A stretch of 64,000 bases of DNA from an uncultured Thermomicrobiales bacterium (GTDB lineage: Bacteria; Chloroflexota; Chloroflexia; Thermomicrobiales; UBA6265), in NCBI GenBank assembly GCA_902806335.1, contig CADCWG010000014.1:1-64000 (forward strand). Direction: 5' to 3'. Below are positions 36,220 to 55,810 of this stretch, piece after piece (positions within the stretch are counted from its first letter, which is position 1; every line of letters starts with the position of its first letter). The position numbers and the translations under genes were made by a program. Below the pieces are notes generated by a model. That model was not told the DNA's origin and did no database searches. It was given only the letters and a program-made list of their open reading frames with translations.

Positions 36220-37170
36220 TCAGGCGCGCTCCTCGCGGACGTAGGCCTGGCCGAGCGCCGCGGGGGCGCCGATCCGCCGCCGGGCGGCGGGGCGGGACGC
36301 GAGGACGAGCGCCGCGACCGTGAACAGGTAGGGCAGCATGTTCAGGAAGAACGACGAGATCGGCACCCCGGCGCCCTGGAGTCGGAACTGCCCCGCCTCC
36401 ACCGCGCCGAAGAGGTAGGCTCCGAAGGCCGCCCGCAAGGGGTTCCAGCCCGCGAAGATCACCAGGGCGACCGCAATGTAGCCCCGACCGGCGGTCACGT
36501 TCTCGGTCCACCCCGGGTTGGTCGCGAGCGAGATCACCGCGCCGCCGAGCCCCGCGAGGGCCCCGCCCGCCACGACGTAGGCGACGCGGAGCGCCGCCAC
36601 CGGCAGGCCGAGCGCGTCCGCGGTCCCCGGGTTCTCCCCGAGTGCCCGCAGGTGCAGCCCCGGGCGGGTGCGGTAGACGAAGAACCAGAGGGCCGGCACC
36701 AGGGCGTAGGAGAGATAGACCAGCGCGTTTTGCCGAAAGAGGATCGGCCCGAGTTCGGGGAGGTCGCCAAGCAGGGGAACGTGGAGCCGGCCGAAGCTGT
36801 CCGGCGCCGCCCGCCCGACCAGGTCGCGCCCCAGGAACGCCGAGAGGCCGGCCCCGAACAGCGTCAGCGCCAGGCCGCTGACGACCTGGTTCGCGCCGAT
36901 CGGGACCGTCAGCACGGCGTGGAGCGCTCCGAAGGCGGCGCCGATCCCGAGCGCCGCCAGGGCGCCGAGCCAGGCCCGGTCGGTCCAGACGGTGACGGCG
37001 AACCCGCCGAGGGCCCCCATCAGCATCATGCCCTCGACGCCCAGGTTGAGGATCCCGGCCCGCTCGCAGAGCAGCTCGCCGAGGCAGGCGTAGAGGATCG
37101 CCGTCGCGGCGGGGATCGCCGCGGCCAGCACCGACGTCAGGAACGCCAGCGAGGTGACGTCGTCCAACAC
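36220..37170 (-). CDS. ABC transporter permease (BMP/nucleoside-type importer), subunit 2
   Basis: ILYACLGELLCERAGILNLGVEGMMLMGALGGF, VPIGANQVVSGLALTLFGAGLSAFLGR, AFGAYLFGAVEAGQFRLQ. Confidence 0.92.
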   Translation of the reverse strand: MLDDVTSLAFLTSVLAAAIPAATAILYACLGELLCERAGILNLGVEGMMLMGALGGFAVTVWTDRAWLGALAALGIGAAFGALHAVLTVPIGANQVVSGLALTLFGAGLSAFLGRDLVGRAAPDSFGRLHVPLLGDLPELGPILFRQNALVYLSYALVPALWFFVYRTRPGLHLRALGENPGTADALGLPVAALRVAYVVAGGALAGLGGAVISLATNPGWTENVTAGRGYIAVALVIFAGWNPLRAAFGAYLFGAVEAGQFRLQGAGVPISSFFLNMLPYLFTVAALVLASRPAARRRIGAPAALGQAYVREERA

Positions 37171-37188
37171 TCCTCCTAGCCCGGTTCG

Positions 37189-38307
37189 CTAGCCCGGCTC
37201 GACGACGGGTGCCGGTCCGCCGGGGATCGGCGTGGGTCGGCGCCACGTGACCCGGTAGCGGGCAAGCGCCTCACCGCCGAGGAGAAAGAAGAGGATCGCG
37301 CCCTGGAGCATCGGGGCGACGGCGGCCGGCAGCCCCAGCTCCATCTGGAGCGCGTCGCCGCCGACCAGGAGCCCGGCGAGGAGGAACGCGACGAGGGCGA
37401 CCCCGCCCGGGTGGAGGCGTCCGACCCAGGCGACGATGATCGCGGTGTAGCCGTAGCCGGGGGAGAAGCTGCGCTGCAGCTGGTGCCCGATGCCCGCCAC
37501 CTCGCTCATCCCGGCCAGGCCGGCGAGGGCCCCGCTGAGGGCCATCACGAGCAGGATGTTGCGCGCCGTGGGGAGGCCGGCGTACCTGGCCGCCCTCGCG
37601 TTCGTCCCGGCCACCGCGATCTCGTAGCCCCACCGGGTCCGTCCGAGCACGAGCCAGAGGATCCCCGCCGCGGCGAGGCCGAACGCTAGGCCGAGATGGA
37701 CGCGGGTGGTCCCCCACTGGGGCAGCTCGGCGGCGTCGGGGAAGCGGGGGGTCCCCGGGAAGCCGAATCCGACCGGGTCGCGCCACGGGCCGTGGACCAG
37801 GTACTCCGCGAAGAGGATCGCCACGTAGTTGAGCATCAGGCTGGTGATGATCTCGTTGACCTGGAGGCGGGCGCGGAGAAGCGCCGGCACGGCGGCCCAG
37901 ACGGCACCGCCCGCCATCCCGGCCAGGATCATCGCCGGGATCAGCACCGCGGCGGGGGCGTCTGGCAGGACGTAGAGGGCCGTGCCGGACGCGGCGACGG
38001 CACCGAGGTAGAGCTGCCCCTCGGCGCCGATGTTCCAGAGCCGCATCCGGAACGCGACCGCCACGCCGAGCCCGGCGAGGAGCAGCGGGATCGTCTTGAC
38101 CAGGGTCTCGGCGACCCCGTCTCGGGAGCCAACGGCCCCGTCGAGCATCGCCCGGTAGACGGCGACCGGCGGCTCCCCTGCCGCCCAGAGCACGATCCCG
38201 CCGGCCACCAGGGCCAGCGCGACCGCGACGAACGGCACCACCGCCGAGGCCACCGCCGATGGCGCCGCGCGACGCTCCAGGCGGGGGGACGGGATCGCGC
38301 TAGCCAT
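37189..38307 (-). CDS. ABC transporter permease (BMP/nucleoside-type importer), subunit 1
   Basis: TIPLLLAGLGVAVAFRMRLWNIGAEGQLYLGAVAAS, VNEIITSLMLNYVAILFAEYLVHGPWRDP. Confidence 0.92.
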   Translation of the reverse strand: MASAIPSPRLERRAAPSAVASAVVPFVAVALALVAGGIVLWAAGEPPVAVYRAMLDGAVGSRDGVAETLVKTIPLLLAGLGVAVAFRMRLWNIGAEGQLYLGAVAASGTALYVLPDAPAAVLIPAMILAGMAGGAVWAAVPALLRARLQVNEIITSLMLNYVAILFAEYLVHGPWRDPVGFGFPGTPRFPDAAELPQWGTTRVHLGLAFGLAAAGILWLVLGRTRWGYEIAVAGTNARAARYAGLPTARNILLVMALSGALAGLAGMSEVAGIGHQLQRSFSPGYGYTAIIVAWVGRLHPGGVALVAFLLAGLLVGGDALQMELGLPAAVAPMLQGAILFFLLGGEALARYRVTWRRPTPIPGGPAPVVEPG

Positions 38308-39892
38308 CGGCCGCGAGCCCTATCGGTACCCCGTCGAACCCCGCCCGCTCCGTGCCCGGTTGTCCCGTCACGCCGGCCATCAGGAGCCCGAGCTGCTCGT
38401 GGTCGGCCGTGGCCGACTCGACCTCCCCGACGACGCGACCCTCGAAGAGGACGGCGATCCGGTCGCTCAGCGCGAGCAACTCGTCCAGGTCCTCCGAGAT
38501 CAGCAGGGTCGCCGCGCCCGCCGCGCGCTGCTCGCGGAGCAGGCGGTGGATAGTCTCGGTGGCACCGACGTCGACGCCGCGGGCGGGGTGGACGGCGACG
38601 ACGAGCCGTGGCCGGCCGTCGAGCTCCCGCCCGAGCAGCAGCTTCTGCTGGTTGCCGCCGGAGAGCCGGCCCGCCGGCGTCGATCGACCCGGCGCCTGGA
38701 CATCGTTCGCGTCCAGGAGGCGATCGGTGAAGCGGGCGATCGCCCGCCCGGCGAGCAGCGGACCTCGGGTCAGGGGACGGACGCGGTAGCCGCGCAGGAT
38801 CGCGTTCGCCGCCAGGTCCAGACCCCCGACGAGCCCCGTCGCCAGGCGGTCCTCGGGGATGTGGGCGACCCCGGCGGCGGCGACCGCCCGGGGCGAGCGG
38901 TTGGTCAGGTCCTGGCCGCCGATCACGACCCGGCCAGCGGTCGCGCGGCGCAGTCCCGTGACCACCTCGGCGAGCTCGCGCTGGCCGTTGCCCGCCACGC
39001 CGGCGATGCCGAGGCTCTCACCCGCGCCAACCCGGAGGTCGACCCCGTCCAGCGCGGGGCGCCCCCGGTCGCCCTCGGCGCGGAGCCCGACGACCTCGAG
39101 GACGGTCTCCCGCGCCGGGGTGCCCGCGGTCGGCGTCAGCCGACGGTCTTCGGGCAGCAGCTCTCGCCCGACCATCAGGCGGGCCAGCGATCGGCGGTCG
39201 GTCGCTGCGGCGTCGACGGTGCCCACTGAGCGGCCGCGACGAAGGACGGTGACCTGGTCGGCCAGGGCCAGCACCTCGTCGAGCTTGTGGGAGATGAAGA
39301 CGACGCAGAGGCCCTCGTCGGCCAGTCCGCGCAGCGCCGCCGCGAGGCCGGCCGCCTCCCGCGGGGTGAGGACCGCCGTCGGCTCGTCGAGGATCAGGAT
39401 CCGCGCGCCCCGGTGGAGGACGCGGAGGATCTCGACCCGCTGCTGCTCGCCGACCGAGAGCTGCCAGATCCGGGCGCGGGGGTCGACCCGCAACCCGTGC
39501 CGCTCGCCGAGCGCGTCGAGCTCCCGCTCGACGGTCGACGTGTCGAGCCGGAACCCCTGGCCCTGACGCCCCAGGAGGACGTTCTCGGCGACGGTCAGCG
39601 AGTCGACCAGCGTGAAGTGCTGGTGGACCATCCCGATCCCGGCGTCGATGGCGTCGCGGGGGGAGCGGAAGCGGACCGGCCGACCGTCGATCGCGACCGT
39701 GCCTGTGTCCGGGCGGTAGAGGCCGGTGAGCACGCTCATCAGGGTGCTCTTGCCGGCGCCGTTCTCGCCGACGAGCGCGTGCACCTCTCCCGACCGCGCG
39801 GCGAAGTCGACGCCGGCGTTGGCCACGACCTCCCCGAAGCGCTTCGTGATCCCCCGCATCTCCACCGCGGGTGGGGCGGCGTCCCTCGTCAT
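38300..39892 (-). CDS. ABC transporter ATP-binding protein with two ATPase modules
   Basis: MRGITKRFGEVVANAGVDFAARSGEVHALVGENGAGKSTLMSVLTG, LSVGEQQRVEILRVLHRGARILILDEPTAVLT, second module with LSGGNQQKLLLGRELDGRPRLVVAVHPARGVDVGA. Confidence 0.96.
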   Translation of the reverse strand: MTRDAAPPAVEMRGITKRFGEVVANAGVDFAARSGEVHALVGENGAGKSTLMSVLTGLYRPDTGTVAIDGRPVRFRSPRDAIDAGIGMVHQHFTLVDSLTVAENVLLGRQGQGFRLDTSTVERELDALGERHGLRVDPRARIWQLSVGEQQRVEILRVLHRGARILILDEPTAVLTPREAAGLAAALRGLADEGLCVVFISHKLDEVLALADQVTVLRRGRSVGTVDAAATDRRSLARLMVGRELLPEDRRLTPTAGTPARETVLEVVGLRAEGDRGRPALDGVDLRVGAGESLGIAGVAGNGQRELAEVVTGLRRATAGRVVIGGQDLTNRSPRAVAAAGVAHIPEDRLATGLVGGLDLAANAILRGYRVRPLTRGPLLAGRAIARFTDRLLDANDVQAPGRSTPAGRLSGGNQQKLLLGRELDGRPRLVVAVHPARGVDVGATETIHRLLREQRAAGAATLLISEDLDELLALSDRIAVLFEGRVVGEVESATADHEQLGLLMAGVTGQPGTERAGFDGVPIGLAADG

Positions 39893-39934
39893 GCGGTCCC
39901 CGGTGGTGGACTGGCCGCGGTCGCGCTGGGGCCG

Positions 39935-41119
39935 CTACGGAGCCGGGTCGCCCTCGACGCCCTGGACGAACCAGTTCATGTCGGTCCCGAGCAGCTGCTC
40001 GGCGGTGAGGGCGGTACCCGCCGGTACCTTCTCTGCTCCGGCCTGGTCGAGGATCGGGCCGGTGAAGATCGTGAAGATGTCCTTCTCACCGGCCTTGAAC
40101 CGGGCGATCTCCGCCTCGGCCTCGGCGCGCACGGCCTCGGGCACCATCGGTCCGATCGGCGCGAGGTCGACGGTGCCGTCCTTCCAGCCGCCCCAGTACT
40201 GGCCCGCCTCCCAGCTGCCGGCCTGGACCTGCTGGACCGTCTGGACGTAGAAGCCGCCCCAGGTCCAGATCGGCCCGGTCAGCACCGCCTGGGGAGCGAG
40301 CGGGGCCATGTCGGCGTTGTAGCCGACCGCGAGGCGGCCCCGGTCCTGGGCGGCCTGGGCGATGCCCGCGGAGTCCTGGTGCTGGGCGAGTACGTCGGCG
40401 CCGCGGTCGAGGAGGGCTTCGGCGGCCGCCCGCTCTTTAGGGGGGTCGAACCAGGTGTTGGTCCAGATGACCTCGACCGTTGCCGCCGGGTTGGCGGCGC
40501 GGACCCCGAGCGCGAAGGCGTTGATGCCGCGGATCACCTCGGGGATCGGAAAGGCGGCCACGTAACCGAGCCGGTTGGCGGTGCTCATCCGGCCCGCGAT
40601 CAGGCCGGAGACGTAGCGCGGCTCCTCGATCTTGCCGAAGCCGGTGCCCACGTTCTCGGCGGTCTTGTAGCCGGAGATGTGGACGAAGACCGTGTCTGGA
40701 AAGTCCTCGGCGACGCTGATCGTCGGCTCCATGTAGCCGAAGGAGGTCGTGAAGACCACCTTCGCGCCGTCCTGGGCGAAGCCACGGATCACCCGCTCGG
40801 CGTCACCCGGGTTCTCCGGCACGTTCTCCTGGTAGACCGTCTCGACGTTCGGCATCTGCTGGGAGAGGAACAGGCGGCCCTGGTCGTGGGCGTAGGTCCA
40901 GCCGAGGTCACCGACGGGGCCAACGTAGACGAACGCGACCTTGATCGGCGGGCCCGCCGCCGGGGAGGCGTCCTGGGCCCGCGCGTCCCGCGGGCCGAGT
41001 CCGACGGCGAGGGCGAGGCTGGCCGTCGCCGCGCCGCGGAGCAGGTCGCGCCGCGACTGGCGCGCGGCACTTGCCGTCGAGGTCACGTCCCGGTCCGAGC
41101 CAGCCGCCACGTCGCCCAT
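39935..41119 (-). CDS. BMP-family substrate-binding protein with Tat-like signal
   Basis: SRRDLLRGAATASLALAVGLG signal; KVAFVYVGPVGDLGWTYAHDQGR; VVFTTSFGYMEPT; SD-like GGGAGG before ATG 41119. Confidence 0.9.
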   Translation of the reverse strand: MGDVAAGSDRDVTSTASAARQSRRDLLRGAATASLALAVGLGPRDARAQDASPAAGPPIKVAFVYVGPVGDLGWTYAHDQGRLFLSQQMPNVETVYQENVPENPGDAERVIRGFAQDGAKVVFTTSFGYMEPTISVAEDFPDTVFVHISGYKTAENVGTGFGKIEEPRYVSGLIAGRMSTANRLGYVAAFPIPEVIRGINAFALGVRAANPAATVEVIWTNTWFDPPKERAAAEALLDRGADVLAQHQDSAGIAQAAQDRGRLAVGYNADMAPLAPQAVLTGPIWTWGGFYVQTVQQVQAGSWEAGQYWGGWKDGTVDLAPIGPMVPEAVRAEAEAEIARFKAGEKDIFTIFTGPILDQAGAEKVPAGTALTAEQLLGTDMNWFVQGVEGDPAP

Positions 41120-41288
41120 CGTCGCCTCCCTCACCATCGCGTCCATCGTCAGACGTGTCGCCGCGCCCCCGTCCGGTCGGCAGTCGTCACCGACGCTCTG
41201 CCAGACGGGATCCTGGCGCGGTCTCCCTCGGGTTCCCGGCGTCGGGCCGCCGCGCCCGCCAGCCACGGCGCGCGGATCGGCCCCGGCG

Positions 41289-43637
41289 TCAGCTCCCGTC
41301 GTCGCTGCTGGTCGCGGGCGAGGGTGTACGGACTCTAGCAGACGTGCCGGGGGAGTCGTCTAGGGCGAATTGCACACGTTCGGGGGTGAAAGGTTGGTCG
41401 GTCAGCCAAACGCCGACCGCGTCGTGGATCGCGGCGGCGACGGCGGGGAGGAACGGCACTAGCGGCAGCTCGGCCATCCCCCGGGCACCGAACGGGCCGT
41501 TCGGGTCGGCCGTCTCGAGGACGAGGGGCACGATCTCGTCCGGGACGTCGAGCGCGGTCGGGAGGAGGTAGTCGTCCCAGGTCCGGGTGAGGACGAAGCC
41601 GTCGGCCATCCGGAAGTCTTCGAGCAGCGCGTAGCCGAGCGCCTGGGCGACCCCGCCCTCGACCTGACCCTCGATCGCCCGCGGGTTGATCGCTCGCCCG
41701 ACGTCGTGGGCGCTGACGACGCCGAGCACGCGGACCACCCCCGTCGCGGGGTCGACCTCGACCTCGACCGCCTGGGCGGCGTAGCCGTAGCAGTAGTTTG
41801 GGGTTCCCTCCCCCGTGATCGGATCGAGCGGGGTGGTGGCCGGCGGCCGGTAGGTGACGGTCGCCTCGACCCGCTCGTCGTCCGTTTCGGGCCACTTCGC
41901 CCGGGCGGCGGCCACGGCGTCGTGGACGGCTCGGCCCGCGACTAGCGTCAGCCGGGAAGCGGAAGCGCTGCCGGCGTCCGGCGCCTCGGCGCTGTCGTCG
42001 GCGACCAGCGCGACCGCCGCGAGCGGCAGGCGGAGCCCGTCGGCGGCGATCTGGCGCAGGGCGAGGTGGACACCCTGGCCGACGTCGGCCGCGCCGATCC
42101 GGACGGTCGCCCGCTCGACCTCGCCGCGGCCGTAGAGCTCGACGGTGGCGGTCGCCCGCTCGGGGAACCCGAAGGAGTAGCCGAGGTTCTTGATCCCGCA
42201 GGCGATCCCCACCCCCCGCCGCGGCCGTTTCCGGGCTATGCCATCGGTGCCGGCCGACGGCACAGCCTCTCCGGCCTGACGGGGAGCGGAGGACGCACCC
42301 GGGACGCGACCGAGCCCATCCCAGCCGATGCCGAACCGGCGCCGTGCTTCGGCGGCGCAGGCCTCGAGTGTCGCCAGGGCGCCGACGCCCGCCGGCAGCG
42401 GCCGCCCGGTCGGCTCGAGGTCGCCTTCCCGGTAGAGGTTGCGCTGGCGGAACGCGACCGGGTCGTCGCCGATCGCCTCGGCGAGGCGAGCGACCATCGA
42501 CTCGGCCGCGAACTGGGCCTGCGGCGCGCCGAAGCCGCGGAACGCCCCGGTCGGCACGTTGTTCGTCAGCACCGCCCGGCCGTGGAGAGCTACGTTCGGC
42601 ACCCGATAGGCGCCGGTCAGCAGGAGCGTCGCGGCCTTGACGACCTCCTGGCTGGTCGACGCGTAGGCCCCGGCGTCGGCGGTCAGGTCGGCCTCGACGC
42701 CACGGATCCGCCCGTCGCCGTCGACGCCCCAGCGCGCGCGGATGGACATGGGGTGGCGCTTCGGGTGGCCGAGCATCGACTCGGTGCGGTCCCAGACCAG
42801 CGCGACCGGGCGCCGCAGCGTCCAGGCGGCGAGCGCGAGCAGGGGCTGGACCGTGAGGTCCTCCCGCCCGCCAAAGGCGCCGCCGATCGCGGCGTAGCGG
42901 ATCACGACCTGCTCGTCGGGGAGGCCAAGGGTGCTGGCGACCTCGCGGCGGTCGTCGTGGGCCCACTGTCCGGCCGTCTCGACGACGACGCGCCCGTCGT
43001 CCTCGACCCAGGCGACCCCGGCCTCGGGCTGGAGAAAGGCGTGCTCCTGCCAGGTCGTGGTGAAGGTGGCCTCGAGCACCGTCGCCGCCCCGGCGAGCGC
43101 CCCGGCGGCGTCGCCCCGCCGGATCCGCACCTCGGTCAGCAGGTTCCCGTCCGGCCGCCCGGGCTGAACCAGCGGCGTGCCGGGGGCAAGCGCCGTGGCC
43201 GGGTCGGCGACGACGGGCAGGTCCTCGTAGGTGACCTCGACGAGGCGTGCACCCGTGGCGGCCGCCTCCCGCGTCTCGGCGGCGACGAGCGCGACGCGCT
43301 CGCCGACCCAGCGGACGACGCCTTCCGCCAGCACCGGCTGGTCGTCCTCGATCAGGCCGAAGCGGTTGCGTGGGACGTCGGCGGCGGTCAGGACCGCGAC
43401 CACCCCCGGGTGGGCCAGGGCGGGACGCGCGTCGACCCCGAGGATCCGGGCGTGTGGCCGCCCGGCGAGCACCGCCCACAGGTGGAGTTGGCCGGGGCGG
43501 GAGAGGTCGCCCGGGTAACGAGCGGCGCCGGTGACCTTGGCGAGCGCGTCGGGGCGCGGCGGCGACGTGCCGACGACGTCTCGCGGCGCCGGCGGCATCC
43601 CGGCGCGCCGGTGTCCGAGGGTAAGCATTCCCATCAC
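41289..43637 (-). CDS. Xanthine dehydrogenase-type molybdopterin-binding large subunit
   Basis: VTGAARYPGDLSRPGQLHLWAVLAGRPHARIL, AIGGAFGGREDLTVQPLLALAAW, TGAFRGFGAPQAQFAAESMVARLAEAIG, HDVGRAINPRAIEGQVEGGVAQALGYALLED. Confidence 0.93.
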   Translation of the reverse strand: MMGMLTLGHRRAGMPPAPRDVVGTSPPRPDALAKVTGAARYPGDLSRPGQLHLWAVLAGRPHARILGVDARPALAHPGVVAVLTAADVPRNRFGLIEDDQPVLAEGVVRWVGERVALVAAETREAAATGARLVEVTYEDLPVVADPATALAPGTPLVQPGRPDGNLLTEVRIRRGDAAGALAGAATVLEATFTTTWQEHAFLQPEAGVAWVEDDGRVVVETAGQWAHDDRREVASTLGLPDEQVVIRYAAIGGAFGGREDLTVQPLLALAAWTLRRPVALVWDRTESMLGHPKRHPMSIRARWGVDGDGRIRGVEADLTADAGAYASTSQEVVKAATLLLTGAYRVPNVALHGRAVLTNNVPTGAFRGFGAPQAQFAAESMVARLAEAIGDDPVAFRQRNLYREGDLEPTGRPLPAGVGALATLEACAAEARRRFGIGWDGLGRVPGASSAPRQAGEAVPSAGTDGIARKRPRRGVGIACGIKNLGYSFGFPERATATVELYGRGEVERATVRIGAADVGQGVHLALRQIAADGLRLPLAAVALVADDSAEAPDAGSASASRLTLVAGRAVHDAVAAARAKWPETDDERVEATVTYRPPATTPLDPITGEGTPNYCYGYAAQAVEVEVDPATGVVRVLGVVSAHDVGRAINPRAIEGQVEGGVAQALGYALLEDFRMADGFVLTRTWDDYLLPTALDVPDEIVPLVLETADPNGPFGARGMAELPLVPFLPAVAAAIHDAVGVWLTDQPFTPERVQFALDDSPGTSARVRTPSPATSSDDGS

Positions 43638-45100
43638 CGGCGGCTATCCCCGGCAGGCAGAACGTCGTGCCCGTGGCTGACTGGGCCGCCCGGTCCGGCG
43701 CCGCCGGCCTGACCGGCCGCGACCACGGCGTCGACGACCTTGCGGTAGCCGGTGCAGCGGCAGATGTTGCCCGCGAGCGCCTGCCGCACCGTGGTCCGGT
43801 CGGGGCTGGGGTCGGTCGCCAGCAGACCCGCGGCGGCCATCAGCAGTCCCGGCGTGCAGTAGCCGCACTGGACCGCGCCGTGCTCGACGAAGGCACGCTG
43901 GAGCGGGTGGAGCCCATCGTCGGCGGCCCCAGGGGACGACCCGGCCAGGCCCTCGACCGTGACGACCGGGACCCCGTGGGCCTGCGCCGCGGGGACGAGG
44001 CAGCTCAGGACCGCCCGGCCGCCGAGCAGGACCGTGCAGGCGCCGCAGCGGCCGTGGGCACAGCCGTTCTTGGTGCCGGTCAGCCCGAGGTCCTCCCGCA
44101 GCGCGTCGAGCAGCGTCCTGGTGCCGGCACCCGCCAGCGTTCGCGCTTGGCCGTTGACGACGGTGTCGACGCTGCCGTCGTAGGGCGCGAGCGCCGCCGG
44201 TCGCGCCGTGGGCCGCCCAAGCCGAGGCGGAGCGGCCGGCGCGGCGGCGTGTCCCTTCGCCAGGTCGGCGAGCGCGCGCGTCGCGAGCGCCGCCAGCACG
44301 CGCCGCCGGTACCGCTCCGTACCCCGGAGGTCGTCGCCCGCGGGCACGGCGGCCGCCATGTGGTCGGCCACGACGTCGGCGCGTTCGCGACTGAGGGGAC
44401 CGCCGACGAGCGACGCCTCGGCGGCGGGCACCCGCACCGCGAGGGGACCCGGCCCGCCGACGGCCACCCGCGCGTCGACCACGAGTTCGCCGTCGAACGC
44501 GAGCAACACGGCGAGGTTGGCGACCGAGGTCGTCGCCGCGGCGCGGAGCCCGAGCCGCAGGAAACGCCCCCGCCAGGACGCCCCGAGCATTGGCACCCGG
44601 ACGCCGACGATCAACGCTCCGGGGCGAAGCGGCGGGCGCGCCGCGGCCGCCAGGTCGGCGACCGGCAGGACCCGTTGGCCGCCGCTGGAGGCGACGATCG
44701 CCCGGGCGCCGAGCGCGACCAGCGGGGTCGTCGGGTCCCGGACGGGGTACCGGGCCACCAGGCTCCCAACGAGTGTCGCCCGGCTCCGGACCAGCGGCGA
44801 GCCGACGCCGGCGCAGGCTTCGGCGAGCGGCGCGGCCCGCTCCCGGACGAGGGGCGCCGACGCGACATCGTCGTGGGTGACTAGGGCCCCGATGAGCAGG
44901 GCATCGCCGTCGGCGCGGATCCCTCCGAGGTCGGGCAGCCGGCCGAGGTCGACCAGTTCGGCGCGAGGCGGCAGCGCGCCACGCCGGGCGTCGATCAGCA
45001 CGCCCGTCCCCCCGGCGACGGGCACGCCACGCGGCCCGAGCATGGTGAGCAGGTCGAGGGCGTCGCCGAGGTCAGTGGGCTGGTGGAAGGTGTCCCACAT
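43634..45100 (-). CDS. Xanthine dehydrogenase-type FAD-binding domain fused N-terminal to a [2Fe-2S] domain
   Basis: N-terminal FAD domain (VAGGTGVLIDARRG...LVDLGRLPDLGGI...VGSPLVRSRATLVGSLVARYPVRD), then NGCAHGRCGACTVLLGGRAVLSC and [18 protein letters not shown]...GNICRCTGYRKVVDAV; start 45100 or 45163. Confidence 0.93.
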   Translation of the reverse strand: MWDTFHQPTDLGDALDLLTMLGPRGVPVAGGTGVLIDARRGALPPRAELVDLGRLPDLGGIRADGDALLIGALVTHDDVASAPLVRERAAPLAEACAGVGSPLVRSRATLVGSLVARYPVRDPTTPLVALGARAIVASSGGQRVLPVADLAAAARPPLRPGALIVGVRVPMLGASWRGRFLRLGLRAAATTSVANLAVLLAFDGELVVDARVAVGGPGPLAVRVPAAEASLVGGPLSRERADVVADHMAAAVPAGDDLRGTERYRRRVLAALATRALADLAKGHAAAPAAPPRLGRPTARPAALAPYDGSVDTVVNGQARTLAGAGTRTLLDALREDLGLTGTKNGCAHGRCGACTVLLGGRAVLSCLVPAAQAHGVPVVTVEGLAGSSPGAADDGLHPLQRAFVEHGAVQCGYCTPGLLMAAAGLLATDPSPDRTTVRQALAGNICRCTGYRKVVDAVVAAGQAGGAGPGGPVSHGHDVLPAGDSRR

Positions 45101-45215
45101 GGTGTTTGTTCTCGCGATCTCCGCCTCCGCCAACAATCCTCGGGCGGAGGCCCGTTGGACCACGGCGGCCCAAGGCGATTCGGATCGGCGGGCCGTGGGC
45201 GAGGGGCGGCGCGGA

Positions 45216-47942
45216 TCAGGCCGACTGGCGACGGTCCGGTCGGAGCAGGCGACCGATTGGCGGTCCGACCGGCTCGTTCTTGCGGGCGACGGTGATGCCG
45301 CGGAGGACCGTGCGAACCACCCGACCGCGGAACCGGGTCCCGACGAACGGGCTCAGGCGGTGCCGCGACCGGAGGTCCTCGGCCGTGAGATCCCACGCGG
45401 CGCCGAGGTCGACGAGGGCGAAGTCGGCGTCCTGGCCGACGGCGAGCGCACCCTTGCCCGGGAGACAGAAGCGGCGGGCGGCGGCGCCGGACGTGAGGGA
45501 GGCGATGGCGCGGAGCGGGAGCCTACGGCCGTGGTGCCCGGCCGTCAACAGCGCCGGCAGCAGCGTCTGGCAGCCGCCGATGCCACCCCAGGCGGCGAAC
45601 CAGTCGCGACCCGCCTTGAGATCGGCCGGCGACGGGGAGTGGTCGGAGGCGACCCAGTCGATGTCGCCGGCCGCCAGCGCCGCCCAGAGCGCCGCGACCT
45701 CCGCGGCGGGGCGGAGCGGGGGGGCGCACTTGGCGAGCGTGCCGAGGCGCACCGCGTCGTCTTCGTCCAGCAGGAGGTAGTGGGGGCAGGTCTCGCAGGT
45801 GACGTCGACCCCGCGAGCCCGCGCGGCGGCGACGAGCGCGACGCCGGCGCCGGTGCTGACGTGGACGACGTGGAGCGCGCAGCCGGTCTCCTCGGCCAGC
45901 GCGATCGCCCTCGCGATCGCCGTGATCTCGGCCTCCGCCGGCCGCGACGCCCCGTAGTCCCGGGCGCCCGTCCGGCCGGCGGCGACAGCCGCCGCCGCGA
46001 GCCGGCGCGTGAGGCCGTCGTCTTCAGCGTGGACGGCGACGGGCATCCCGAGGCGGGCGGCGCGCTCCATCCCGCGGTGGAGCGTGCGCTCGTCGGCCGC
46101 CGGAAACTCGGGCACGCCGCTGTCGGACATGAAGGCCTTGAAGCCGACCACGCCCCGCTCGGCCAGTTCGTCCAGGCGGTCGAGGTCGCCGGGGACCAGC
46201 CCGCCCCAGAGCGCGAGGTCGATCCGGGCGCCGCCCGCGATGGCCGCCGCCTTGGCGTCGAAGGCCGCCCCGTCCACCGTCGGCGGGAGGCTGTTGAGCG
46301 GCATGTCGCAGGCGGTCGTCGCCCCGCCCGCCGCCAGCGCGGCGGTGCCCGGCGAGATGCCTTCCCAGTCGGCCCGACCGGGGTCGTTCAGGTGGACGTG
46401 GGCGTCGACAACGCCGGGGAAGACGTGGAGGCCCGACGCGTCCACCTCCTCGCGCGCCGGCCCGGCGAGGTCGGGTCCAAGCGCAATCACCCGGCCGTCG
46501 AGCGCGGCGAGGTCGCCCCGCACCGTGCGGTCGGCCAGGACGAGCGTGCCGCCGCGGACGAGCAGGTCGAAGGTCGCCATGCGGGGCTCCGGTGGTCGGC
46601 GAGGGCTGGTTGACGGGGCGCGGCCGCGTCGGGGCGCCGCGGCGAGGTCGGCGAGGAAGCGGTCGGCGACGCCGAGCGCGATGGCGATGTCGGGCGTTGC
46701 GACGTGCTCGGCGGGATGGTGGCTGACACCCCCGGCGCAGCGGACGAAGAGCATCGCGACCGGGCAGATCCCCGCGAGGGCGACCGCGTCGTGGCCGGCA
46801 CCGCTCGGCAGCCGGTGGGCCGGGAGCCCGAGGGACGTCACCGCCGCGGCGAGGCGGTCGGTGAGCCCGGGGTCGCAGGCGACGGCCGGGGCCCGCTGGA
46901 CGACCTCCCACGCCACCGCCACCGCGCGCCGATCCCCGATCGCGCGGGCGGCCTCCCGGAGCGTGGCGACGAGCGTCTCCCGCCCCCGGTCGTCGGGGGC
47001 ACGCGCGTCGAGAGTCAGCGCGACGGAGCCGGGCACCACGTTGCTCGCCCCCGGCGCGACGGCGAGTTGGCCGACCGTCGCGACCAGACCGCGGTCGGCG
47101 CCGTCGGCGGCGGCGGTCTCCACCGCGAGCACAAACTCGGCGGCGGCGCAGAGCGCGTCGCGGCGGGAGCCCATCGGGACCGTCCCCGCGTGGCCGGCCT
47201 CCCCGGCGAAGCGGACCGCGATCCGGCTCTGGCCGGCGATCGCCGAGACCACCCCGACCGGTGCCCCGAGCCGCTCGAGCACGGGGCCCTGCTCCAGGTG
47301 GACCTCGACGTAGCCGATGATGCCCGCCGGTTCGCGCCGGGCCGTCGCCAGCCCAGCCGGAGACGGGTCCCCGCCGTAGTCCCGGATCGCCTCCGCCACC
47401 GACCGGCCCGAGGCGTCCTCGAGCGCCAGCATCGCCGCGTCGATGGTGCCGGCGAGCGCGCGGCTGCCGAGATACGCCGACCGGAACCGGAGTCCCTCCT
47501 CGTCGGCGAACGCCACGACCTCGACCGCGAACGGGCGCCTCACGTCGAGGCGGAGGCGCTCGACGGCGGCGATCGCGAGAAGGACGCCGAGCGCGCCGTC
47601 GAACCGGCCGGCGTCGCGGACGGTGTCGAGGTGGCTCCCCAGGAGAAGTGTCGGCGCGGCCGCCCCGGCGGGGTCACCCGCGTCGACCCGTCCGATCAAG
47701 TTGCCGACCGTGTCGCGCCGGGTCGCCATGCCGGCGGCGCCCATCCAGGCGGCGACCATGTCCCGGGCGGCGCGCAGGGCCGGGCCGCCGTAGGGCCGCG
47801 ACAGGCGGCCCGGCTCGTCGCTCAGCGCCGCCAGCGCTTCGCACCGGGCCGCGACCATTTCGGCGCGGGCGGACGTGTCCCCGGGCCCAGCCGCTTCCGG
47901 CGGCGGATCGGTCCGCGTCACGACGGGAAGCTCACGAGCCAC
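45216..47942 (-). CDS. Fused allantoate amidohydrolase-type M20 hydrolase (N-term) and allantoinase (C-term)
   Basis: M20 part TLLLGSHLDTVRDAGRFDGALGVLLAIAAVE, AFADEEGLRFRSAYLGSRAL, EVHLEQGPVLE, SGAGHDAVALAGICPVAMLFVRCAGGVSHHPAEH; linker RRGRAPSTSPRRPPEPR; allantoinase part MATFDLLVRGGTLVLADR...GLHVFPGVVDAHVHLNDPGRADWEGISPGTAALAAGGATTACDMPLNS. No stop between the domains. Confidence 0.9.
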   Translation of the reverse strand: MARELPVVTRTDPPPEAAGPGDTSARAEMVAARCEALAALSDEPGRLSRPYGGPALRAARDMVAAWMGAAGMATRRDTVGNLIGRVDAGDPAGAAAPTLLLGSHLDTVRDAGRFDGALGVLLAIAAVERLRLDVRRPFAVEVVAFADEEGLRFRSAYLGSRALAGTIDAAMLALEDASGRSVAEAIRDYGGDPSPAGLATARREPAGIIGYVEVHLEQGPVLERLGAPVGVVSAIAGQSRIAVRFAGEAGHAGTVPMGSRRDALCAAAEFVLAVETAAADGADRGLVATVGQLAVAPGASNVVPGSVALTLDARAPDDRGRETLVATLREAARAIGDRRAVAVAWEVVQRAPAVACDPGLTDRLAAAVTSLGLPAHRLPSGAGHDAVALAGICPVAMLFVRCAGGVSHHPAEHVATPDIAIALGVADRFLADLAAAPRRGRAPSTSPRRPPEPRMATFDLLVRGGTLVLADRTVRGDLAALDGRVIALGPDLAGPAREEVDASGLHVFPGVVDAHVHLNDPGRADWEGISPGTAALAAGGATTACDMPLNSLPPTVDGAAFDAKAAAIAGGARIDLALWGGLVPGDLDRLDELAERGVVGFKAFMSDSGVPEFPAADERTLHRGMERAARLGMPVAVHAEDDGLTRRLAAAAVAAGRTGARDYGASRPAEAEITAIARAIALAEETGCALHVVHVSTGAGVALVAAARARGVDVTCETCPHYLLLDEDDAVRLGTLAKCAPPLRPAAEVAALWAALAAGDIDWVASDHSPSPADLKAGRDWFAAWGGIGGCQTLLPALLTAGHHGRRLPLRAIASLTSGAAARRFCLPGKGALAVGQDADFALVDLGAAWDLTAEDLRSRHRLSPFVGTRFRGRVVRTVLRGITVARKNEPVGPPIGRLLRPDRRQSA

Positions 47943-48324
47943 GGTAGGTCGAATAGGCCCAGGGCGAGACGAGCAGCGGCACGTGATAGTGCGCCGCGTC
48001 GGCGACCCCGAAGCGGACCACGACGTCGCCGAGGAAGGGGGGATCCGACACGGCAATGTCGTGGGCGGCGAAGTAGGCGCCGACCCTGAAGGTTAGCTCG
48101 TAGATGCCGGGCTGGAGGCCCTCCGGGGCCAGTGTCCCACGGGAGATCCGCCCGTCGCCGTCGGTCTCCGCCCGGCCGATCGGCGAGCGCCGCCAGCCGA
48201 CCGGGGAGCCGTCATCCCCGCCGGGGAAGACGCGGGCGAGGGCCACCTCGACGCCGGCGGCGGGGCGACCGGCCGCGGTGTCGAGCACGTGGGTCGAGAC
48301 GGTCGCGGTTCGGTGCTCAACCAT
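47932..48324 (-). CDS. 5-hydroxyisourate hydrolase (transthyretin-like)
   Basis: STHVLDTAAGRPAAGVEVALAR ... GIYELTFRVGAYFA ... FGVADAAHYHVPLLVSPWAYSTYRGS C-terminal motif. Confidence 0.96.
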   Translation of the reverse strand: MVEHRTATVSTHVLDTAAGRPAAGVEVALARVFPGGDDGSPVGWRRSPIGRAETDGDGRISRGTLAPEGLQPGIYELTFRVGAYFAAHDIAVSDPPFLGDVVVRFGVADAAHYHVPLLVSPWAYSTYRGS

Positions 48325-48400
48325 CAGTGAGGCTGGCCGTCGCCACGGCCGCCGTCGGGCCGGCCGAGCGCCGTGACGCGTGGCGGATCGCCCCGGCCCG

Positions 48401-49942
48401 TCATGCGCTGACCCCCGTTCGCGACATAACAAGGGTTATCAGGCCGTAAGCCGGGAAGGGATCGGTGTAGACCCTCGGGCCGTCGGGGACGGCGTCCGCG
48501 TCCCCGGCGACCGGGTCGCGGGTCCGGTTCTCGGCGGCGAAGCCGACCTCGGCCAACTGCGGAAAGCGGGCCAGCAGGGCGACGCCCATCTCGTGGACCA
48601 GGTGCTGGATCGACTCGCTGACGAGGCGGTGGAAGACCGCCCGGCAGAGGTCGCCGACCTGCTCGGCGGGGACGTACCGAGCGTGGTCGTGGCCGAGCGC
48701 GTCGCCGGGGTCGGCGTAGCGCCAGTGGACGTCGAGCAGCACGAAGAGGGGCCGGTCGACGCGGTCGGGGAGGGTGGTGTTGCCGTCGCGGACGAAGCGG
48801 GTGAAGGCGCTGCCCGTCGTCTTGAGCAGCTCGATGCCGACTATTCCGCACCGGTGGGTCCGGACCGAGATCTCGCCGCCGTCGCTGGTCGTCTCCAGCT
48901 CGACGACGCTCCGGTCGCCGTGGCCGCGGGCGTAGAGGACGCCGCTCGTCGCGAAGCCGCCGCCCTCGGTCGGAACCGTGACCGGCGCGAAGGGCAGCTC
49001 CCGCGCCTCCAGCCGGAGGTGACGGAGCTGGGTGTAGGCGGCGCCGAAGCGGCGGGCCAGGTGGGCCAGCAGTGCTTCGAGCGTGGCGCCCTCGAACGCC
49101 AGCGCCTCGCGCAGCACCAGATTCTTGATCGAGTCCGTGGCGACAAGCCCGGCGTTGTCGCCGTGGGTGTAGGCGCGCAGCGGACCGTCGCCGAGGACCT
49201 CGACCGTGACCTCGGCGGCGAGGAGCGTGTTGTCCCGGCTGACGAACGGCGACTCCGGGATCGGCGGCACGCCGTGGAGCGGCGCGGCCCGCACCCGATA
49301 GAGCGGCACGGCGCGCTTGCCGTACGAGATCTGGTACCGCACGGCCGGCCCCGCTTCGCCGCCCTCGTCGGCAGCGGTCGGACTCTGCGCCGGTGATGCC
49401 CCGGCCTCCGATCCGAGGAGATCCTGGAGGCGGTAGCGGGTGATCCTGTCGATTTCCGCCAGCGCCGTCGCGAGTTCCTCGCCCTCGGCGTTCCCCAGGC
49501 GCCGCTCGAGGCCGGCGAGGACGCTGTCCCGGTCGCTCTCTCGGGCGCAGACGACGAACGGGAAGCCGAAGCGCTCGCGGTAGGCGGCGTTGAGGCGGTC
49601 GAAGGTCGCCGCGGCCTCGGGCGCGATCCGGTCGGGCGCGAGGCCGGCCGCGGCCTGCTCCGCTCTGGACGCCGCCGAGACCTCTGCGCTGCGCGCCGCC
49701 CGGCCCGCGAGGTCCGGGTGGGCGCGGACGAGGGAGAGCTGCCGGTCGCGGTCGCCCGCCAGGACGGCCGCCGCGAGGGCGGCGCGCAGGTCCTCGCCGG
49801 ACGCGAAGGGGCGCGCGTCCCAGGCCGCGGCGGCGGCCCAGGTCTGACCCTCGTGGAGTGGCGCGAGCGCCGCCGCGAAGGCGTCCCGGTCGAGGAGGTT
49901 CAGGTCGGCGAGGGTCGGGGTCGAGGATGCGACCGTGGCCAT
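48401..49942 (-). CDS. pucL: Fused OHCU decarboxylase (N-term) and uricase (C-term), PucL-like
   Basis: OHCU decarboxylase part LVRAHPDLAGRAARSAEVSAASRAEQAAAGL...FGFPFVVCARESDRDSVLAGLERRLGN; uricase part YQISYGKRAVPLYRV, YTHGDNAGLVATDSIKNLV, LLKTTGSAFTRFVRD. Confidence 0.95.
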   Translation of the reverse strand: MATVASSTPTLADLNLLDRDAFAAALAPLHEGQTWAAAAAWDARPFASGEDLRAALAAAVLAGDRDRQLSLVRAHPDLAGRAARSAEVSAASRAEQAAAGLAPDRIAPEAAATFDRLNAAYRERFGFPFVVCARESDRDSVLAGLERRLGNAEGEELATALAEIDRITRYRLQDLLGSEAGASPAQSPTAADEGGEAGPAVRYQISYGKRAVPLYRVRAAPLHGVPPIPESPFVSRDNTLLAAEVTVEVLGDGPLRAYTHGDNAGLVATDSIKNLVLREALAFEGATLEALLAHLARRFGAAYTQLRHLRLEARELPFAPVTVPTEGGGFATSGVLYARGHGDRSVVELETTSDGGEISVRTHRCGIVGIELLKTTGSAFTRFVRDGNTTLPDRVDRPLFVLLDVHWRYADPGDALGHDHARYVPAEQVGDLCRAVFHRLVSESIQHLVHEMGVALLARFPQLAEVGFAAENRTRDPVAGDADAVPDGPRVYTDPFPAYGLITLVMSRTGVSA

Positions 49943-50005
49943 GGGTGCCCCCGTCTGCGAGGCGCCGCGACGCGCCCGAGGAGCCGCCCCGCTCGGGGAG
50001 GCGGG

Positions 50006-50077
50006 ATCATACCGGACGGCACCCCGCGGCGTTGACGCACTCCATCCCGCGTCGAGAGCCCTCACGATCGGATCGTG
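50006..50077 (-). promoter_or_regulatory. Candidate promoter/operator region upstream of the purine operon
   Basis: Minus-strand -10-like TATGAT (50006-50011); perfect palindrome CACGATC-G-GATCGTG (50063-50077) in the divergent intergenic region. Confidence 0.45.
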
Positions 50078-50276
50078 CTCGGCGGGGCGGAGTACTGAGG
50101 CCGGGCTCCGCCCGTGTCCCCGTGCGCCGGTTGACGCCGCTGGACCCATGATGAAGGGACGAGTCCCGGCGGAGAGGTCATCGTGACCGCGATCTGACGT
50201 TCCCGTGGCGCCCGCGGCGGCCGCCGTGGCGTCGCGGGCCGGGAGCGGCTAGCATCGCCGCTCCGGCGGCGGGCCG

Positions 50277-51551
50277 GTGGGGATGCGGCGGGGGTGCGGG
50301 GTGGAGGACGGGGAACACGGGGCGATACGGATCGCGCCCGACGAGGTCGCGGGCCCGATCGCCGAGCTGGCGCGGTTCGGCGCCCACGGGGAGACCGGCG
50401 TCTGGCGCACGGTCTACTCCCCGGAGTGGGTCGCCGCCGCCGACTGGTACGCCGCCCAGGCCGAGGCGGCCGGGCTCGCGGTCCGCCGCGACGCCGTCGG
50501 CAACGTCTGGGCGCGTCTGGACGGGACCGAGGACGGCAAGTCGATCGCGACCGGGTCGCACCTCGACTCGCAGCGCCCGGGCGGGCAGTACGACGGCGCG
50601 CTGGGCGCCATCGGCGGCCTCGTCGCCCTGCGCAAGCTTCGCGAGCGCTTCGGCCAGCCGCGGCGGACGCTGGAGGCCGTTGCCCTCTGCGAGGAGGAGG
50701 CGAGCCGCTTCCCGACCGCCAACTTCTGGGGCAGCCGGGCGATCATCGGCCAGATCGCGCCCGGCGACCCGGAGGCGACGATCGGCTACGACGGCGAGAC
50801 GATCGCGGCGGCGATGCGCGCGATCGGGCTCGACCCCGACCGCTGCGGCGAGGCCCGGCGGGACGACCTCGACACGTTCGTCGAGCTCCACATCGAGCAG
50901 GGTCCCCTGCTCGAGCAGCAGGGGCTGCCGGTCGGGGTCGTCTCCGCGATCACGGGCCTGCGCCACTACGCGGTCACGCTCCACGGCACCGCCAACCACG
51001 CCGGCGCCTTCCCGATGGACCTCCGGCGCGACCCGATGGCCGGCGCGGCGGAGATCATCTCCGGCGTCGTCAACACCGCCCACCGGATGGGCCGCCCGGC
51101 CGTGACCACGGTCGGCCGGCTGGCCGTCGAGCCGAACGGCGCGGCGATCGTCCCCGAGCGCGTGACCTTCACGGTCGACGCGCGCCACCCCGACCCCGCC
51201 GCCCGCGCCCGGCTCTACGCCAAGCACGAGGCGCTGATCGCCGAGGTCGCCGCCCGCCGCGACCTCGACGTCTCCTGGGAGATCACCCACGAGCAGGACC
51301 CCTGCGTCTGCGACGCGGCCACGGTGGCGACCCTGGAAGCCGCGGCCCGCGCGCTGGGGGTGCCGTTCACGACCATGACCAGCGGCGCGGTCCACGACAC
51401 CCAGCAGATGGCGGCGGTGGCCAAGGTTGCGATGGTCTTTATCCAGAGCCGCGACGGGCGCAGCCACACCCCGGAGGAGTACTCGTCGCCGGAGCACCTC
51501 GCCGCCGGCGTCGAGGTGCTGACCGAGGCGCTGCGGCGGCTCGCCTACTGA
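50277..51551 (+). CDS. M20-family amidohydrolase, allantoate/ureidoglycolate amidohydrolase- or carbamoylase-like
   Basis: [108 protein letters not shown]. Confidence 0.9.
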
Positions 51552-51767
51552 CGTCCGGACGCCATTCCAACCCTATAGCCTCCCGGGGACCGGCGGTCGT
51601 GGAGGCGACGCCGCGGGTCGCCCGAATGGTCCTCCACCGCGCCGTCGCGTCCACCGGGCATGGACCGGCCGTATACTGCGGCGCATCCGAATCTGGCGTC
51701 CCAGAGGAGCCCCCGGCGACGGCGCCGCGGCGTGAGGCAGCGATCGAGCGAAGGAGACCCGGCGACG

Positions 51768-52295
51768 ATGGCGGACACGATGGCGGCCCCGGCGAAGGTG
51801 GCGATCACGCTCACCGTCAACGGCGAGCAGCGGACCGGCCAGGTCGAGCCCCGGACGCTGCTCGTCCACTTTCTGCGCGAGGGGCTCGGCCTGACCGGCG
51901 CCCACGTCGGCTGCGACACCAGCCAGTGCGGCTCCTGCGTGGTCGAGCTCAACGGCGCCAGCGTGAAGAGCTGCACGGTGCTGGCGGTCCAGGCCGACGG
52001 CGCCGAGGTGCTGACGATCGAGGGGCTCGGGCGCGACGGCGCCTACCACCCGATCCAGGAAGGGTTCTGGGAGAAGCACGGGCTCCAGTGCGGGTACTGC
52101 ACCCCGGGCATGATCATGTCGGCCTATGGGCTGCTCAAGCGGAACCCCGACCCCTCCGAGGACGAGATCCGCCACGCCCTCGACGGCAACCTCTGCCGCT
52201 GCACGGGCTACCAGAACATCGTCCGCTCGATCCAGTACGCCGCCCAGCTGATGAAGGACGGCCCCACCGCCCCGGTCGCGACCTCCGCCGACTAG
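51768..52295 (+). CDS. CoxS-like [2Fe-2S] small subunit of a molybdenum hydroxylase
   Basis: [64 protein letters not shown]. Confidence 0.95.
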
Positions 52296-52359
52296 CCACC
52301 ACGCGCGCCCGCCCTCGGAGGCGGTGCGCCGCATCCCCATGGGACCCTGCGAACACGAA

Positions 52360-52421
52360 CCCGCCGCCGGCGAAGGCGGCGGGCCGCCAGGTGAGCGTCA
52401 CGGCGGGCCACGCCGGCCCGC
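52360..52421 (+). other. Two tandem GC hairpins in the S-L intergenic gap
   Basis: CCCGCCGCC-GGCGAA-GGCGGCGGG (52360-52383) and GCGGGCC-ACGCC-GGCCCGC (52403-52421). Confidence 0.6.
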
Positions 52422-52436
52422 GCAGGAGCCGACCCC

Positions 52437-54863
52437 ATGAGCGCCACCCTCGACGCCGCGGCCCCGGTCAAGCTCGTCGGCCAGCCCCTCAAGCGGCGCG
52501 AAGACCCCCGGCTGATCACCGGCGCCGGCGCGTTCCTCGACGACGTCAGACTGCCCGGGCTCTGTCACCTCGGCGTGGTCCGCTCCCCCTATGGCCATGC
52601 CAGGATCCTGGGCATCGACACCACCCGGGCCGCGGCGATGCCCGGCGTGCTCGGGGTCTTCACCGGCGACGACTTCCTCGACCTCAACCCGCTGCCCTGC
52701 GCCTGGCAGGCCGGCAAAGTCCAGAACAACGTCAACACCCCGCGGGTGCTGGCGGTCGGCGAGGTCCACCACGTCGGCGACCCGGTCGCGGTGGTCGTCG
52801 CCGAGACGCCGTCGCAGGCGGTCGACGCCGCCGAGGCGATCGACGTCGAGTACGAGGAGCTGCCGGTCGTCGTCGACGCCCGCAGGGCGACCGAACCCGG
52901 GGCGCCGCAATTGCACGAGAACGCGCCGAACAACGTGGTGCTGCGCTGGTCGTGCGGCAAGGAGGCGGCCGAGGTCGACGCCGCCCTGGCGGCGGCCGAG
53001 GTTCGGATCGACCAGCCGATCGTCAACCAGCGGCTGCTGCCGACCCCCATGGACACCCGCGGCTCGATCGGGCGCTACGACCCGGGTACGGGGGAGTACA
53101 CCCTCTGGGCCACGTCCCAGGCGCCCCACGTCATGCGGCTGCTGATCGCGGCCTTCGTGATGGGGGTGCCGGAGCAGAACATCCGGGTGATCGCGCCGGA
53201 TGTCGGCGGCGGGTTCGGCCAGAAGATCTTCCTCTACTTCGACATGCCGCTGGTGCTCGCGCTCTCGAAGAAGCTCGGTGGCCGCCCGGTCAAGTTCTAC
53301 GAGGACCGCTCCGAGAACTACCTGAGCGCGACCCACGGCCGCGACCACCTGACCGACGTGGCGATCGGCGCGACCCGCGACGGCCAGATCACCGCGCTCA
53401 AGGTCGACACCCACGCCAACCTGGGCGGCTACCTCTCGACGATCGCGCCGGGCATCCCGACCACCCTCTACGCTCGGATGATCGCCGGCTGCTACAAGAT
53501 CCCCAACATCCGCGTCGACGTCACCGGCGTCTACACCAACACGGCGATGGTCGACGCCTACCGCGGCGCCGGCCGGCCGGAGGCGGCCTTCGTCATCGAG
53601 CGGGTCTGCGACCTGGTCGCCGACGCCACCGGGCTGGACCCGGCCGAAGTGCGGCGGCGGAACTTCATCCAGCCGAGCGACTTCCCGTACGACACCGGGA
53701 TCGGCATGCTGCCCTACGACAGCGGCAACTACGAGCCGACCCTCGACCGCGCGCTCGAGCTCGTCGGCTACGACGACCTCAAGGCGGAGCAGGCCGCGCG
53801 GCGCGCCCGCGGCGACCGCAAGCTGCTCGGGATCGGCCTCTCCTCCTACGTCGAGGTCTGCGGCGTGGCGCCGTCGAAGTGGATCGGGCTGCCCGGCGAG
53901 GGCTGGGGCGCCGGACTCTGGGAGAGCGCGAACGTCAAGGTCCACCTCACCGGCAAGGTCGTGGTCACGACCGGCACGCTGCCGCACGGCCAGGGGCACG
54001 AGACCACCTTCGCCCAGCTCGTCGCCGACGAGCTCGGCGTGCCCTACGACGACATCCAGGTCCGGCACTCCGACACGCTCGGGACCCCCTTCGGCTTCGG
54101 CTCCTACGGCAGCCGGTCGCTCTCGGTCGGCGGCACCGCCATCTACAAGAGCGTCGCCAAGGTGCGGGAGAAGGCGAAGCGACTCGCGGCGCACATGCTG
54201 GAGGCCGCGCCCGAGGACATCGTTTGGGAGGACGGCAAGGCGCACGTCCGGGGCGCGCCGGCCAGCCTGAAGACGCTTGGCGAGATCGCGCTCCAGGCGT
54301 CGGTCGCCTACGATCTCCCGGAGGGCATGGAGCCGTACCTCGACGAGACGACCTACTACGACCCGCCGAACTGCACCTTCCCCTTCGGCACCCACGTCTG
54401 CGTGGTCGAGATCGACCGCGAGACCGGCGCCGTCGAGCCGGTCCGCTACGTCGCCGTCGACGACGTCGGCAACGTGGTCAACCCGCTGATCGTCGACGGC
54501 CAGATCCACGGCGGGATCGCCCAGGGTCTGGCCCAGGCACTGTACGAGGCCGCGGTCTACAGCGACGACGGCGAGCTCGTGACCGGCACGCTCAACGACT
54601 ACGCGATCCCCAAGGCGTCGATGGTGCCGACCTACGAGCTGGACCGGACGGTCACCCCGTCGCCGACCAACCCGATGGGCGTCAAGGGGGCCGGCGAGGC
54701 GGGCACGATCGCCTCGACGCCGGCCGTCGCCAACGCCGTGATCGACGCCGTCTCCCACCTCGGCGTTCGCCACCTCGACATGCCGCTCACGCCCGAGCGC
54801 GTCTGGCGCGCGATGCGTGACGCCGAGCGCTCGGACCCGGGCGTCGCGGCGGCGGCGGACTAG
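52437..54863 (+). CDS. CoxL-like large subunit (form II-type molybdenum hydroxylase)
   Basis: [46 protein letters not shown], active-site loop [32 protein letters not shown]. Confidence 0.94.
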
Positions 54864-54946
54864 CGGGTGTGGGTGTCAGCACGGCGCCCCCCTCCCTCCC
54901 TGATTCGTCTCTAGCGTGGCCGCGGGCCAGCGACAGGAGCAAGCGC

Positions 54947-55810
54947 GTGTTTCCGAACCAGTTCGCTTACCACCGCCCGTCGACGCTCGAGGAGGCGGTG
55001 GGCCTGCTCGCCGCCGATCCCGACGCCAAGGTCCTCGCCGGCGGCCACTCGCTGCTGCCGGCGATGAAGCTGCGGCTCGCGGCGCCGGGCGCCCTTGTCG
55101 ACCTCGCCAGCATCGAGGGGCTGCGCGGCATCTCCGCCGACGGGGCGGTGACCATCGGCGCGATGACGACCTACAACCAACTCGTCGACTCGGACGAGCT
55201 GCGCGCGCGGCTGCCGGTGGTGGCCGAGGTGGCCGCCGGCGTGGGCGATCCCCAGGTCCGCTCCCTCGGCACCCTCGGCGGCTCGCTCGCCCACAACGAC
55301 CCCGCGGCGGACTTCACGGCCCTGATGCTCGCGCTCGGCGCCGACGTCACCGCGGTCGGGTCGCAGGGCGAGCGGACCATCCCCGCCGACGAGTTCTTCC
55401 TCGACATCCTGACCACCGCCCTCGGGCCCGACGAGATCCTGACCGCTGTCCGGATCCCGGTCCCGGCCGGCCGGGTCGGGATGGCCTACCAGAAGCACGA
55501 GCACCCGGCCTCGGGCTACGCGGTGGTCGGCATCGCGGCCGTGCTCGCGCTTGGCGACGACGGCACCTGCCGGTCGGCCCGGGTGGCGGTCACCGGCTGC
55601 GCCCCGACCGCCACCCGCGCCGCGGCGGCCGAAGCGGCGCTGGTCGGCCAGGCGCTCACGCCCGAGACCATCGCCGCCGCGGCCCAGGCGGCGCCAGGCG
55701 GCCTCGAGATCACCGGCGACCTCTACGCCTCCGCCGAGTACCGAAGCCACCTCGTGACCGTGGTCGGCCGGCGCGTGCTCGAGCAGGCGGCGGCCCGCGC
55801 CCGGGGCTAG
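54947..55810 (+). CDS. CoxM-like FAD-binding medium subunit
   Basis: FAYHRPSTLEEAVGLLAADPDAKVLAGGHSLLPAMKLRLAAPGALVDLASI, VRSLGTLGGSLAHNDPAADFTA; GTG start. Confidence 0.93.
   Translation: MFPNQFAYHRPSTLEEAVGLLAADPDAKVLAGGHSLLPAMKLRLAAPGALVDLASIEGLRGISADGAVTIGAMTTYNQLVDSDELRARLPVVAEVAAGVGDPQVRSLGTLGGSLAHNDPAADFTALMLALGADVTAVGSQGERTIPADEFFLDILTTALGPDEILTAVRIPVPAGRVGMAYQKHEHPASGYAVVGIAAVLALGDDGTCRSARVAVTGCAPTATRAAAAEAALVGQALTPETIAAAAQAAPGGLEITGDLYASAEYRSHLVTVVGRRVLEQAAARARG

Follow-up and report, generated by a model that had tools for sequence, protein, structure and literature searches.

An apparent AllC-AllB fusion in the urate-degradation operon of a draft bacterial genome

Results

A single uninterrupted reading frame in the DNA analysed here (the window, 64,000 nucleotides, most likely from a member of the Thermomicrobiales, Chloroflexota) joins an AllC-like M20 amidohydrolase, a linker and an AllB allantoinase, in that order from the N to the C terminus. 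We consider this to be most likely a real operon fusion, in which adjacent allC and allB genes lost the intervening stop in this lineage and one 93-kDa two-domain protein is made. The fusion is small, lineage-restricted and apparently recent, and it joins two ordinary enzymes. The features discussed below are listed in Table 1.

Table 1. Features of the fused gene and of its surroundings (positions in the window)
Feature	Position	Strand	Evidence or remarks
Fused allC-allB ORF	45216..47942	-	908 aa; GTG start overlaps HIUase stop; TGA stop
AllC-like M20 domain (residues 24-434)	46641..47873	-	NF006775; invariant columns; PDB relatives 3n5f, 4pxe, 1z2l
20-residue Arg/Pro/Ala linker (residues 435-454)	46581..46640	-	zero stops in any frame; predicted disordered
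SD-like GGAG, 6 nt before internal ATG	46587..46590	-	chance level about 8%
AllB allantoinase domain from internal ATG (residues 455-908)	45219..46580	-	TIGR03178; 3hm7, 3e74, 8hfd; invariant columns
5-hydroxyisourate hydrolase (HIUase/PucM type)	47932..48432	-	TIGR02962 above cut-off
OHCU decarboxylase-uricase fusion (PucL type)	48401..50149	-	TIGR03164 and TIGR03383 above cut-off
Xanthine dehydrogenase-like FAD plus 2Fe-2S fusion subunit	43634..45163	-	Pfam/NCBIfam; same fusion in relatives
Xanthine dehydrogenase-like molybdopterin subunit	41289..43637	-	Pfam/NCBIfam
Bmp/PnrA-type ABC importer	36220..41266	-	binding protein 39935-41266, double ATPase 38300-39892, permeases 37189-38307 and 36220-37170
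Second M20 amidohydrolase, divergent from operon	50277..51551	+	Pfam/NCBIfam matches

The fused frame and its two domains

An earlier note on this DNA had described one frame carrying an AllC-type M20 enzyme, an Arg/Pro linker and an allantoinase, and this was confirmed. From a presumed GTG start at 47942 the frame runs on the minus strand to a TGA at 45216-45218 with no internal stop, and encodes 908 residues plus the stop. Pfam and NCBIfam place the M20/allantoate amidohydrolase match at residues ~24-435 and the allantoinase match at ~457-903. The calculated masses are 93 kDa for the full fused protein and 46.9 kDa for AllB made from the internal ATG.

The AllC domain matched the NCBIfam allantoate amidohydrolase model NF006775 over its full length, with 515 bits against a cut-off of 479. 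Residues H104, D115, E148/E149, H215 and H408, which from knowledge of the M20 family we take to form the dinuclear metal site, are invariant among relatives in the alignment columns. The whole domain, a score above the cut-off and the metal-ligand residues are thus shared with known AllC allantoate amidohydrolases (M20; solved structures 1z2l and 4pxd), the difference being that AllB is joined here at the C terminus. The best solved relatives are an N-carbamoyl-L-amino acid hydrolase, a ureidoglycolate hydrolase and an allantoate amidohydrolase, and the sequence of the domain resembles the 3n5f and 4pxe chains more than it does E. coli AllC, so that the substrate assignment rests on context. 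The urate operon and the adjacency of AllB suggest allantoate, rather than another N-carbamoyl compound, as the putative substrate.

Similarly, the AllB domain scored 527 bits with TIGR03178 (cut-off 358), covering positions 1-440 of the 441 in the profile, and its best solved relatives are allantoinases (3hm7, 3e74 and 8hfd). The metal ligands H515, H517, K602, H638, H694 and D767 are invariant among relatives in the alignment columns; we assume their roles (HxH, carboxylated Lys, two His and Asp) from the amidohydrolase superfamily. As for AllC, the whole domain, the score above the cut-off and the metal-ligand residues agree with known AllB allantoinases, which differ in having no AllC joined at the N terminus. 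Judged by sequence, both halves of the fused protein look functional.

The AlphaFold2 model of the fused protein, built from a shallow alignment (9 rows), contains two confident domains, with a mean pLDDT of 82.9 and a pTM of 0.54. The latter would fit two domains held in no fixed mutual arrangement. The pLDDT fell below 50 only in the first 21 residues, across the linker (residues 437-456) and in some short segments, and the linker is accordingly predicted to be disordered.

The internal start

The allantoinase beginning MATFDLLVRGG, with its ATG at 46580, and the GGAG 6 nt 5' of this codon are both present as previously reported. Within the window, 8% of all codons are preceded by an SD-like motif at suitable spacing, as are 15 of the 200 internal ATGs in frame, so the site is weak evidence for initiation. 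Free AllB made from the internal ATG of the fused message is nevertheless plausible on the face of the sequence. The frame could then be real and the working products mostly separate, with the internal ATG yielding free AllB and the long product being minor or cleaved in the linker. We regard this reading as rather unlikely. The ancestral state is that of separate proteins, the internal ATG has kept its GGAG at 6 nt, and a linker predicted to be disordered would be open to proteases; however, GGAG-like motifs are found at the above frequency by chance, and nothing blocks ribosomes starting at the GTG from completing the full protein.

The surrounding operon

The fused gene belongs to a cluster of an ordinary kind for the uptake of purines and the degradation of urate. 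The OHCU decarboxylase-uricase and HIUase genes lie upstream on the same strand, and the xanthine dehydrogenase-like subunits and the ABC importer lie downstream. The core order OHCU decarboxylase, uricase, HIUase, AllC, AllB and xanthine dehydrogenase is kept across the family.

The OHCU decarboxylase-uricase is a second fusion within the same operon; it is fused here and in one other locus (L155, genome G043) and is encoded by two genes in most family members, and in some relatives the two genes share a frame with a single stop between them. The joining of the FAD and 2Fe-2S parts of xanthine dehydrogenase in one ORF is general in the family and recurs in several further phyla. In addition, a separate three-subunit molybdopterin dehydrogenase (2Fe-2S, Mo and FAD genes) adjoins the urate cluster at 51660-55810 on the plus strand. 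The second M20 amidohydrolase is 76% identical to the gene at the same place in another genome (G010, locus L152) and is possibly a ureidoglycolate amidohydrolase.

Comparison with relatives

We scanned 41 genomes of relatives, 32 of the family, 160 of the class and 399 of the phylum, as well as 398 of a second phylum, 299 of a class within it and 287 of a class in a third group, for a total of about 1,600 with some overlap between sets. Junctions were read in Chloroflexota, Actinomycetota, Verrucomicrobiota and others. The search for other full-length two-domain proteins that the earlier note had proposed found none: no second uninterrupted AllC-AllB frame was detected in these genomes, in 80 genome-contig loci or in the plasmid collection. 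Besides the one described here, 54 junctions were readable, or about 53 distinct ones, as loci L011 and L040 are one contig. A stop separates allC from allB in each of them, which bears out the view that the two enzymes are as a rule separate proteins. AllB starts at most about 10 nt past the AllC stop in 25 of the 54, within 150 nt in 15 and further away in 14, and the end of AllC in the relatives is usually no more than about 25 residues from the junction point.

A conserved family of bifunctional AllC-AllB enzymes, under selection for allantoate channelling, would agree with the consecutive activities and the conserved operon, but not with the lack of a single further fused copy in all the material scanned. 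We consider it highly improbable, and rejected it after the scans of the family, class, phylum, other phyla and plasmids. The constant separation in relatives, which the earlier note had named as evidence against its reading, thus speaks against such a family and does not refute the frame itself.

Several candidates for further fusions were dismissed. Eleven close pairs (L130-L133, L139, L140 and L145-L149) share one frame that is broken at the junction by only one or two stops, a single TAG in 7 of the 11. In L141, L166, L142 and L168 AllB lies in a long open frame, but AllC is not part of it: AllC occupies a different frame, lies elsewhere or is missing from the stretch. Finally, the pair gave two separate matches, each under its own annotated gene, in ten Deinococcus plasmid records.

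The comparison also bears on the domain order. The two activities are consecutive pathway steps, as had been noted, but the reversed order of the domains was not upheld as a functional or design clue. It is simply inherited, because allC followed by allB is the widespread and usual gene order in relatives.

Stop loss or sequence error

The eleven same-frame pairs suggest that a fusion can arise by the loss of a single stop. At a GC content of 74%, the next stop lies far downstream once the one at the junction is lost. The adjacent OHCU decarboxylase-uricase junction follows a similar pattern, being fused in frame here and in L155 and separate in most relatives, and this lends support to a real fusion. 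GC by codon position is 0.85/0.95/0.75 in the linker and about 0.8/0.57/0.93 in the domains. This profile would, as expected, fit a non-coding origin of the linker; its Pro and Arg content would raise GC at the second position too.

The fusion is a single instance, read from one draft genome (332 contigs, 92.6% complete), the sole one of its genus in the comparison. We weighed an assembly or consensus artefact, in which allC and allB are separate and the stop is masked by a miscalled base, such as would give CGA in place of TGA. Every relative has a stop at this junction, and a single substitution would turn any of four linker codons (two CGA, one TCA and one GAG) into a stop, so that one of them may be a former stop misread. 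Such codons are, however, expected by chance (102 of 909 across the whole ORF), and a consensus substitution exactly at one stop seems improbable a priori. A one-base indel, in the organism or the assembly, was rejected since no linker frame contains a stop; the alternative frames stay open to residue-equivalents 484 and 638, deep in AllB, far from where AllC of the relatives ends. Overall, we judge an artefact quite improbable.

Discussion

Under the favoured reading, that of a real operon fusion, loss of the stop between adjacent allC and allB would have given the single 93-kDa protein, and former intergenic or tail sequence would have become the flexible linker of 20 residues. The AllB domain would open allantoin to allantoate, which the AllC domain of the same chain would hydrolyse to ureidoglycine, ammonia and CO2. 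The long flexible linker may permit each domain to form its own oligomer still, as the free homologues do, and some free AllB may start at the old internal ATG. The fusion would tether the successive enzymes, from which a gain need not follow; the fused protein is presumably catalytically active and perhaps of benefit to the cell. We are doubtful of a stronger proposal, which we hold unlikely, namely a bifunctional allantoin-to-ureidoglycine enzyme in which tethering matters and in which one message, through additional free AllB from the internal start, sets the activity ratio.

If real, the fusion is a fresh example of the joining of operon neighbours in GC-rich genomes: relatives have overlapping genes, or same-frame genes with one stop, and here there is a fused product. 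It would also be a ready-made two-step ureide enzyme for the study of tethering. Knowledge of the pathway itself is unchanged by it. No description of an AllC-AllB fusion was evident in the open-licence papers searched.

Comparison with known fusions

The PucL-type fusion of OHCU decarboxylase and uricase is widely known. Like the fusion described here it joins two enzymes of the same pathway in frame and within the same operon, but for another pair of steps. The model NF010373 (PRK13799), named "unknown domain/N-carbamoyl-L-amino acid hydrolase", likewise describes an M20 hydrolase joined to a further domain, and the N-terminal region of the model corresponds to OHCU decarboxylase. The partner, unlike here, is not an allantoinase. 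In Cryptococcus, allantoicase and ureidoglycolate hydrolase are fused, with a cDNA spanning the ORF (PMC3646786). This fusion also places consecutive steps of ureide degradation in one ORF, but it is fungal, involves other enzymes and is not homologous. Fusions of ureide-pathway enzymes are thus familiar, and the AllC-AllB pairing is of the same general kind.
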